DNA of 64,000 nt from Gluconacetobacter diazotrophicus PA1 5 (lineage in GTDB: Bacteria; Pseudomonadota; Alphaproteobacteria; Acetobacterales; Acetobacteraceae), in NCBI RefSeq assembly GCF_000021325.1, contig NC_011365.1:3252001-3316000 (forward strand), written 5' to 3'. Shown here piece after piece: positions 38,089 to 40,682 of the stretch. The translations under genes and the position numbers were made by a program. The notes under the pieces are model-generated. The model was not told the origin of the DNA and made no database searches. It saw only the letters and a list, made by a program, of their open reading frames with translations. The first letter of the stretch is position 1. The number at the start of each line of letters is the position of its first letter.

Positions 38089-38763
38089 ATGCCGGATTAC
38101 ACACGCGAGATGCAGCATGGCGGCCGGGTCGCCGGGGTGGACGAAGTCGGTCGCGGGCCGCTGGCGGGGCCGGTGGTGGCCGCCGCGGTGATGTTCGATT
38201 CGGGCGTGCCCCGGCGCCTTGCCACCCAGCTTGACGATTCGAAGAAGCTGACCGAAGCGGCGCGGCTGCGGGCCTATGCCGCGCTGCATGCGGCGCGGGG
38301 GGTGCATATCGCGGTCGCCGCGGCCTCGGTTTCCGAAATCGCGCGGCTGAATATCCTGCGTGCCGCCTTCCTGGCGATGCGCCGCGCCGTGGCGCGGCTG
38401 CCGCACCAGCCCGACATGGTGCTGGTGGACGGCAATGCCGCGCCCGATTTCGGCTGTCCCGCGCAGTGCGTCGTCGGCGGCGACGGCGAAAGCCTGTCCA
38501 TCGCCGCGGCCTCGATCGTGGCCAAGGTGGTGCGCGACCGGCTGATGGCGCGGCTGTCCTGCCGCTGGCCGGGCTACGGGTGGGAGCGCAATGCCGGATA
38601 CGGCACCGCCGAGCATCGTGCGGCGCTGTGCCGCGCGGGCACGACCCCCCATCATCGCGAAGCGTTCGGGCTGGTTCGGCAACTGACGCTGGGGCTGGTG
38701 CCCGCGGCGGCGCCCGGGATGGCGCCGGGACTGGTCCCCGCCGTCCTGGAAGACGTGTCATGA
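38089..38763 (+). CDS. rnhB: Ribonuclease HII
   Basis: It removes ribonucleotides from DNA and RNA primers. The 224-residue reading has [19 protein letters not shown] with the first catalytic acids, [12 protein letters not shown], and [12 protein letters not shown], followed by [16 protein letters not shown] 38089 (MPDYTREM) follows GGATGGGGTGG; ATG 38080 and 38029 are in frame upstream. It overlaps ccrM by four bases (ATGA), a pairing conserved in alphaproteobacteria. Confidence 0.93.
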
Positions 38764-39872
38764 GCGGCGCGGTGATGATGGAATTGCCCCTGGACCAGAT
38801 CCTGCGCGGCGACTGCGTCGAACTGATGCAGACCCTGCCGACGGGGTCGATCGACTGCATCTTTGCCGACCCGCCCTATAATCTGCAGTTGCGCGGCGAA
38901 TTGCGGCGGCCCGACGACAGTGTCGTCGATGGGGTCGATGACGATTGGGACAAGTTCAGCGACCTGGCGGAATATGACCGCTTCACCCGGGCATGGCTGG
39001 GCGAGGCACGTCGCCTGCTGCGCAAGGACGGGACGATCTGGGTGATCGGGTCCTATCACAATATCTTCCGGATCGGCGCGATCCTGCAGGATCTGGGATT
39101 CTGGATCCTGAACGACGTGATCTGGCGCAAATCCAACCCGATGCCGAATTTCCGCGGGCGGCGGTTCACCAATGCCCATGAAACCCTGATCTGGGCGGCA
39201 CGGGGGGCGGACAGCCGCTATCGCTTCAATTACCAGGCGATGAAGGCGCTGAACGACGACGTGCAGATGCGGTCGGACTGGTACCTGCCGCTGTGCACGG
39301 GGGGCGAGCGGCTGCGCAATTCCCACGGGCTGAAGCTGCATCCGACGCAGAAGCCGGAAAGCCTGCTGCACCGGGTGCTGGTGGCCTCGACCAACGTCGA
39401 TGACATCGTGCTGGACCCGTTCGCGGGGACGGGCACGACGACGGCGATGGCCCGGCGCCTGCGCCGCCGCTTCATCGGCATCGAACGTCACCCCGATTAT
39501 GCCGAGGCCGCGATCGGCCGCGCCCGGCGCGAGCGCCCGGTGCCGCTGGACAGCGTGCTGACGACCCCCGCGAAGCGCGAGACCCCGCGCGTGCCCTTCG
39601 GCAGCCTGGTCGAACGTGGATTGCTGCCGGTCGGCACGGTGATGTACGATCGCCATCAGCGCGTGTCCGCCACCGTGGCGCCGGACGGCACGCTGGTCAG
39701 CGGCACGCAGCGCGGGTCGATCCACAAGCTGGGGGCGCTGCTGACGAACGCGCCGTCCTGCAATGGCTGGACGTTCTGGCACCTTCAGCGCGACGGGCAG
39801 ATGATCCCGCTGGATACGCTGCGCAACGAGGCGCTGTCCCTGGATGCCACCACCGAATCGCCGAAGGGCTAG
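38760..39872 (+). CDS. ccrM: Cell-cycle DNA adenine methyltransferase CcrM (GANTC)
   Basis: The 370-residue beta-class N6-adenine methyltransferase has DPPY at 37-40 and the SAM motif [10 protein letters not shown] around residue 220-230. The recognition part lies between them ([25 protein letters not shown]). The C-terminal roughly 85 residues match the RAMA/CcrM extension ([15 protein letters not shown]...). CcrM methylates GANTC late in replication in alphaproteobacteria and shapes CtrA and GcrA regulons. Linked to rnhB as usual. Confidence 0.95.
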
Positions 39873-39929: not shown

Positions 39930-40097
39930 TTAGAGGCTATGTCAAAAGCCCTGCTGCTGGCGATCCGACGTGCGTTTCCTGCGCTCCGATGCTCTCGGCC
40001 CATAAGGCCGCTCCGCTTCGGTGCTCGGAAACACACGCCGGGCGCGGCCCTTCTGGCCGCTCTCGCTCAGCAGCAGGGCTTTTGACACAGCCTCTTA
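39930..40097. mobile_element. MITE-like element with 27-bp inverted ends and TTA duplication
   Basis: The 162-base core (39933-40094) starts GAGGCTATGTCAAAAGCCC and ends with its complement; the 27-base ends (39933-39959 and 40068-40094) match at 26 positions. Flanking TTA at 39930-39932 and 40095-40097 is a 3-base target duplication of the TNA type made by IS1031/ISL2-group IS5 elements, which are common in acetic acid bacteria. No transposase is encoded. Inner stems (CGGCC/GGCCG near 39997-40011; GCGGCC/GGCCGC near 40044-40060) let the element fold extensively. Confidence 0.85.
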
Positions 40098-40682
40098 GCT
40101 TCCCCCGAAGCCCAGGAACCCGATCGAAGGCTGCGGCGTGCCGCCGCTTCCCGCCACCACGACGCGCTTGCCATGGCTGCTGCCGTTGATGCTGAGATGC
40201 CCGGCACCGTTCTGGATCGAGACGCCCGAATGGGTGGTCGAGGCCGCGATGACGTGGTCGTCGTTCAGCGTGCGCAGCGACAGCAGCAGGAAGGTGATGT
40301 CGTTGCGGTTCAGGTCGATGGCCATGTCCAGCGGCGTCTGGCCCAGCACATTGTGCCCTTCGGTGTCCGCGCCGCGATTCAGGGCTTCCTTCGCCGCGCC
40401 GAGGCTGCCGCGATTGATCGCGTCGAACAGGGCGGCGGTGGGATTGAGGTCGCCGTTGGCGTGGCCGCCGATGTCCTCGGACGAGACCGCGCCCGGCAGC
40501 GCGGCCGGCGGCGCGGCGGCGCGGGCGGCGCGGCGGGCCTCGGCCTGCTTCGCGGCGTCGGCGGCCTCGGCGTCCGATTCCTCGTCATCCTGGGCGTAGG
40601 CGAAATGCATCGGAGCGATCAGCACCGCACTGCCGGCCAGCAGCGCGATGAAGAGGATGCGGATACCGGATCTGACAATCAT
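40095..40682 (-). CDS. Exported ankyrin-repeat protein
   Basis: The 195-residue reading begins with a signal peptide (MIVRSGIRILFIALLAGSAV, cleavage likely after AYA). Ankyrin-like repeats follow an acidic/Ala-rich linker: AALFDAINRGSLGAAKEAL, then GHNVLGQTPLDMAIDLN. A Gly/Ser-rich tail ends GFLGFGGS. The TAA stop (40095-40097 on the minus strand) is the TTA target duplication of the adjacent element. The frame is open upstream to ATG 40832, which overlaps the preceding gene by ATGA, but that start would put the signal sequence 50 residues inside. Confidence 0.7.
   Translation of the reverse strand: MIVRSGIRILFIALLAGSAVLIAPMHFAYAQDDEESDAEAADAAKQAEARRAARAAAPPAALPGAVSSEDIGGHANGDLNPTAALFDAINRGSLGAAKEALNRGADTEGHNVLGQTPLDMAIDLNRNDITFLLLSLRTLNDDHVIAASTTHSGVSIQNGAGHLSINGSSHGKRVVVAGSGGTPQPSIGFLGFGGS

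Follow-up and report, generated by a model that had tools for sequence, protein, structure and literature searches.

Why should a short, strongly folding piece of DNA end exactly on the stop codon of a gene, and is this the accident of a single insertion or a habit of the element? The question is raised by positions 39930-40097 of the window (the whole 64-kb stretch of Gluconacetobacter diazotrophicus PA1 5 DNA that was analysed), where 168 bases read as TTA, a 162-bp insert and TTA again. The 27 bases at each end of the insert match as inverted repeats at 26/27 positions (GAGGCTATGTCAAAAGCCCTGCTGCTG vs GAGGCTGTGTCAAAAGCCCTGCTGCTG), and the right TTA (40095-40097) reads, on the other strand, as the TAA that ends an ankyrin gene (40095-40682, minus strand). 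The first-pass annotation had described these features, and all of them were confirmed in the sequence. The strong fold that it claimed was likewise borne out, as the element strand has a folding energy of -127.2 kcal/mol against a mean of -66.3 for shuffled sequences (z = -14.5). Its picture of a plain inverted repeat was right about the matching ends but missed both the actual fold, which is a three-way junction, and the stop codon rule described below.

The features of the locus are collected in the table. A methyltransferase gene on the plus strand ends 57 nt left of the element, and the ankyrin gene on the minus strand ends at its right side; the two genes converge, and the element therefore lies between two convergent genes. 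The best NCBIfam match of the methyltransferase is CcrM with 618 bits, below the cut-off of 830 for that model. Relatives of the ankyrin gene are present in Gluconacetobacter, Acetobacter, Gluconobacter and Komagataeibacter.

Features of the element and its surroundings in the window, with tandem copies at other loci of the family
Feature	Position	Strand	Basis
CcrM-like adenine DNA methyltransferase, convergent neighbour	38760..39872	+	N6_N4_Mtase 210 bits + RAMA
Target duplication, left copy TTA	39930..39932	.	equals right copy at 40095-40097
162-bp element	39933..40094	+ (family orientation per covariance model)	sequence, blastn, covariance model
Left terminal inverted repeat = outer stem 5' arm	39933..39959	+	26/27 match to right end
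Conserved core, three-way junction with two side hairpins	39959..40067	+	alignment A1 consensus structure, columns 36-146
Long inner hairpin	39964..40042	+	A1 columns 41-119
Short inner hairpin	40044..40060	+	A1 columns 121-139
Right terminal inverted repeat = outer stem 3' arm	40068..40094	+	26/27 match to left end
Target duplication, right copy = ankyrin gene TAA stop	40095..40097	-	sequence
Small ankyrin-repeat gene, element at its stop	40095..40682	-	gene call; weak Ank_2 match below Pfam cut-off
Tandem copies behind one stop	L377:2356-2852; L353:2938-3381; also L217, L227, L229, L334		

The element is not alone. A blastn search of its own genome returned 44 stretches similar to it, with E-values down to 2e-83, which is far from chance. 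From 25 full copies we built a covariance model (R1), which found 53 matches in the same genome, some 40 of which are sense-strand matches, and scored the window copy at 191.4 bits (G000:C1:3291924-3292103, strand +). Matches were detected in 14/14 Gluconacetobacter genomes, with 11 to 140 per genome, and across the family in 57/299 sampled genomes belonging to 29/102 sampled genera. As Rfam holds no family matching the element at either gathering or relaxed thresholds, and the literature searched for the repeat contained nothing specific to it, the family seems to be unannotated. Much smaller derivatives, only about 20 bp long (GAGGCTTTTGAAACAGCCTC) and with the two ends fused without a core, occur at loci L150, L153 and L154 near base 1500; they sit at or near gene ends, and one is flanked by TTA on both sides.

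The comparisons below draw their loci in other genomes from the matches with the best scores. Where upstream flanks were similar, loci were collapsed into one, which removes part of the kinship among copies and leaves 155 distinct loci. Identical triplets flank the element at 36/155 of these. Among the first 104 loci there are 29 such cases, whereas 2,000 shuffles gave 10 on average and never more than 19, and the duplicated triplets are chiefly TGA/TGA, with TTA/TTA and TAA/TAA also present. The ankyrin locus was scanned with the covariance model in 26 relatives and gave no match in any of them, hence the empty site that the first-pass annotation had proposed to look for was found in 26/26; where it could be read, the sequence behind the ankyrin stop in these relatives is short and unrelated. 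At fabI, rlmH, cysK, cysE and an hlyD-like gene, too, some species carry the element and others have the empty site. The family thus combines dozens of copies in this genome, terminal inverted repeats, TNA target duplications and empty-site alleles, and carries no gene, so the earlier reading as a miniature inverted-repeat transposable element (MITE) holds. It is non-autonomous mobile DNA of about 160 bp, and its copies are mobile.

The same genome carries IS5-family insertion sequences that duplicate TNA. The triplet was found at 19/20 of the IS copies read, with both sides identical in most, and a DDE transposase of this family is encoded in the genome (NF033580, 234 bits). An IS5-family transposase of 274 aa lies at L052:1165-1989. 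One IS of about 885 bp has the ends GAGCCTGTTTGGAAAGTC, which resemble the least diverged ends of the element family, GAGCCTGTTTGAAAATG. From these ends and duplications, a transposase acting in trans, as the first-pass annotation had suggested, and of the IS5/IS1031 type, is a reasonable candidate for the mover of the element. The window copy itself falls into another subfamily, with the ends GAGGCTGTTTCAAAAGCC, and a search of the genome found no IS with exactly these ends that could be its parent.

We then considered where the copies lie relative to genes. The orientation of each copy was taken from the covariance model, independently of the genes, and stops were defined by a simple gene caller based on a codon-usage score trained on the window. 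A same-strand stop codon lies within 3 nt to the left of the first stem base at 101/155 loci, and at 64 of them the distance is exactly 0 nt; a stop within 3 nt of the right end occurs at 4/155 (left/right binomial p = 2e-25). The anchoring appears in the own genome (22/33), in the genus (43/62) and in other genera (36/60). At several loci with an offset of -1 or -2 the stem is longer and starts again at the base after the stop, as for CGTTTTGG...CCAAAACG behind the TGA of cysK. About one third of the copies are away from stop codons. The position directly behind stops on the sense strand is a family-wide, strand-specific regularity. The remark that the insertion had spared the stop of the ankyrin gene was therefore correct in that the gene is preserved, but this is an instance of a rule and no single event, and the window copy is exceptional in its orientation, being one of the 4 reversed loci with the stop at the right end. 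Facing the ankyrin stop the other way round from most copies, it may lack the usual effect, and statements about the family need not apply to the ankyrin gene.

An ordinary selfish MITE could produce part of this pattern, if TGA and TAA stops were hit simply as harmless TNA targets and the hairpin and its position had no function. It would leave clear TNA duplications and IS5-like ends, it would preserve a gene whenever the insertion hits the stop codon, and empty alleles would be common, all of which was found. What it does not account for is the strand, with an orientation of 101 vs 4. Random TNA sites outside genes are expected to fall at stops in about 17% of cases, both orientations together, and the control of same-class IS copies in the own genome gave 2/20 at stops, one in each orientation (Fisher p = 1e-6). 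The choice of stop codon speaks in the same direction. At offset 0 the stops are TGA 47, TAA 12 and TAG 5 of 64, compared with 42, 12 and 8 for the window genes, and among all stop-adjacent loci the share of TAG is about 17%, against 13% in the window genes. As TAG is not a TNA triplet and is used nevertheless, the stop codon itself seems to be what the copies are anchored to. A preference for TNA does not explain the rule, given that same-class IS copies do not follow it and that TAG is used about as often as in genes. The preservation of the core fold across genera is a further point against a functionless element, and we find this explanation unlikely.

A rule of this kind may arise by retention of copies that have landed at stops or by insertion directed to them. 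Copies with little-diverged, transposase-like ends are stop-anchored in 15/33 cases and those with diverged ends in 71/102 (p = 0.02); an anchoring that increases with end divergence fits retention. The bias is present even in the younger copies, and a component of insertion targeting may act alongside retention. That the transposase or another factor targets stops directly, so that the bias comes from insertion and not from retention, would be in line with the 15/33 anchored copies among those with little-diverged ends, with repeat insertion at one stop ahead of an older copy, and with tandem arrays in which a complete copy adjoins the stop. The DNA around the sites has no obvious shared feature beyond the stop codon, and the left-flank triplets of the non-stop copies are TCA and TGA equally often (6 and 6). 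Together with the increase of anchoring with divergence and the lack of anchoring of the IS copies, this makes targeting as the source of the bias quite improbable.

The tandem sets show a polarity. The stop-proximal copy matches the whole model (for example at L168, L217, L227, L229, L242, L334, L335, L361 and L377), and the distal copies are often matched over about positions 35-146 alone, with the outer stem lost. At the hlyD-like locus of genome G010, a copy of a different type stands at the stop; behind it lies the copy that corresponds to the one at the stop in G001 and G009. This polarity, along with the rise of anchoring with divergence, fits retention at the stop plus renewal from the stop side, and would also be possible with targeted insertion. 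Apart from these sets, pairs of copies were seen back to back in opposite orientation at L239, L214 (about 1005-1380) and L247 (2192-2557), in a context that is repeated in several genomes; such pairs could represent a composite mobile unit.

The family fold has an outer stem and a short closing stem, and its three-way junction bears two hairpins. Of the 60 pairs, 31 have changed on both sides, and the covariation score is 0.328, compared with 0.114 for shuffled alignments and at most 0.089 with slid partners. The outer 17 pairs vary strongly between loci and are Watson-Crick in 2406/2584 cells. Compensated changes were also seen between species at one and the same locus, for the arms at fabI (CCTGCCCGG...CCGGGCAGG vs CCTGACCGG...CCGGTCAGG), at the hlyD-like gene (TTTTGG...CCAAAA vs TTTGGG...CCCAAA) and at cysK. 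The idea that the arms are copied from the target flank was considered for cysK and dropped, as the arms agree with a single consensus at every locus. In the core, a few alternative matched blocks (e.g. GGCCC/GGGCC and GCCGC/GCGGC; A1 columns 54-56/104-106 and 121-139) are found again at unrelated loci, and orthologues differ in them, which suggests exchange between copies.

It should be noted that complementarity of this kind may be kept at the level of DNA, by cruciform formation or by arm-to-arm template switching in replication, and it would then be uninformative on RNA. Among the mismatches of the outer stem, A.C is not rarer than G.U (66 vs 27; 21 vs 15 in the length-180 subset), hence the usual mark of selection on a sense RNA is missing and we do not claim pairing at the RNA level. 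The left and right arms at L279 (cysK, G002) and L251 (fabI, G009) are of two types that are found in sister species, and look as if recombined or caught halfway between compensating changes, as upkeep in DNA might leave them. The junction gives a hint in the other direction, with a G.U at model pair 36-144 (67/69) and a U.G at 41-119 (55/69) that are conserved on the sense strand only, and which flank the junction and so may be unpaired. As DNA-level upkeep also leaves the stop anchoring and the strand without explanation, we regard it as a somewhat doubtful account of the covariation.

The reading that we prefer, with a probability of about 0.5, is that the copies are moved by an IS5-type transposase and that those placing the hairpin directly behind a stop are retained, for a function that we infer. 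An IS1031-like transposase of the IS5 family, duplicating TNA, would move the non-autonomous elements of about 160 bp. A copy landing in sense orientation on a stop codon would be kept, its transcript would presumably fold into a long hairpin from the first base after the stop, and a ribosome arriving at the stop would have to open the stem. By analogy with REPs near stops, this might modulate how the ribosome terminates and is released, how the mRNA decays, or how its 3' end is processed. If a further copy inserted at that stop, it would take over the position, and the displaced copy would lose its outer stem. E. coli REPs at most 15 nt from a stop are reported to stall ribosomes (cited in PMC12306157), which makes an action of the element on ribosomes at termination, or on the end of the mRNA, plausible. 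Going further, and with less confidence, the family may be a mobile lineage specialised in the stops of housekeeping genes, a sense-oriented, portable 3' hairpin that is coupled to translation termination and renewed in front of decaying copies.

A hairpin behind genes, often between convergent ones, might also be a vertically inherited and immobile intrinsic transcription terminator. The absence of tight operon junctions, which is also part of the evidence for the preferred reading, would suit such a role: the next co-directional gene starts less than 14 nt behind the element in 0/58 cases, against 25/52 for co-directional gene pairs of the window. The empty alleles, target duplications and tandem re-insertion are at odds with an immobile terminator, the gap between fabI and aroC is 24-43 nt in the empty alleles and thus an unlikely site for a strong one, and no U run follows the stem in the copies read. 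Terminators placed a few bases behind a stop were reported as nearly inactive in E. coli (PMC4824070), which makes a role in transcription termination less likely. With neither a U run in the flanks nor a suitable spacing, the intrinsic terminator was rejected, and we consider it very improbable.

If the retention is functional, selfish DNA has been put to use on a large scale as 3' untranslated elements whose distance to the stop is fixed to the base. Sister species then offer a natural series at the same genes, with alleles that are filled, empty, inverted or doubled, which addresses what a hairpin at zero distance does to ribosome release, to mRNA decay and to downstream expression. If it is instead the insertion that is targeted, a mobile element able to find stops would be choosing its targets in a new way.

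Among known systems, the REPs near stops in E. coli resemble the element in being palindromes that are repeated behind stop codons and may affect translation or mRNA. They differ in length (20-40 bp against about 160 bp), and the element has target duplications and an exact spacing of 0 nt. A search of the own genome for a RAYT-like Y1 transposase (Y1_Tnp) gave no match, and as the length and ends also differ from the GTAG/CGTC-tagged 20-40 bp units, a REP/RAYT origin was rejected. The CGTC-tagged REP family has been reported as missing in Acetobacteraceae (PMC3733652).

The MITEs of the IS5 family (IS1031 type, TNA duplication) are likewise short and gene-less, with inverted ends, TNA duplications and a related full-length IS in the genome. 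What sets the present family apart from them is a conserved three-way-junction core with arms that vary between loci, and its strand-specific anchoring to stops, which the IS copies do not show. Integron attC sites are also folded palindromes of variable sequence directly behind stops. In contrast to these, the element family is dispersed behind housekeeping genes and not in cassette arrays, and it has target duplications and IS5-like ends.
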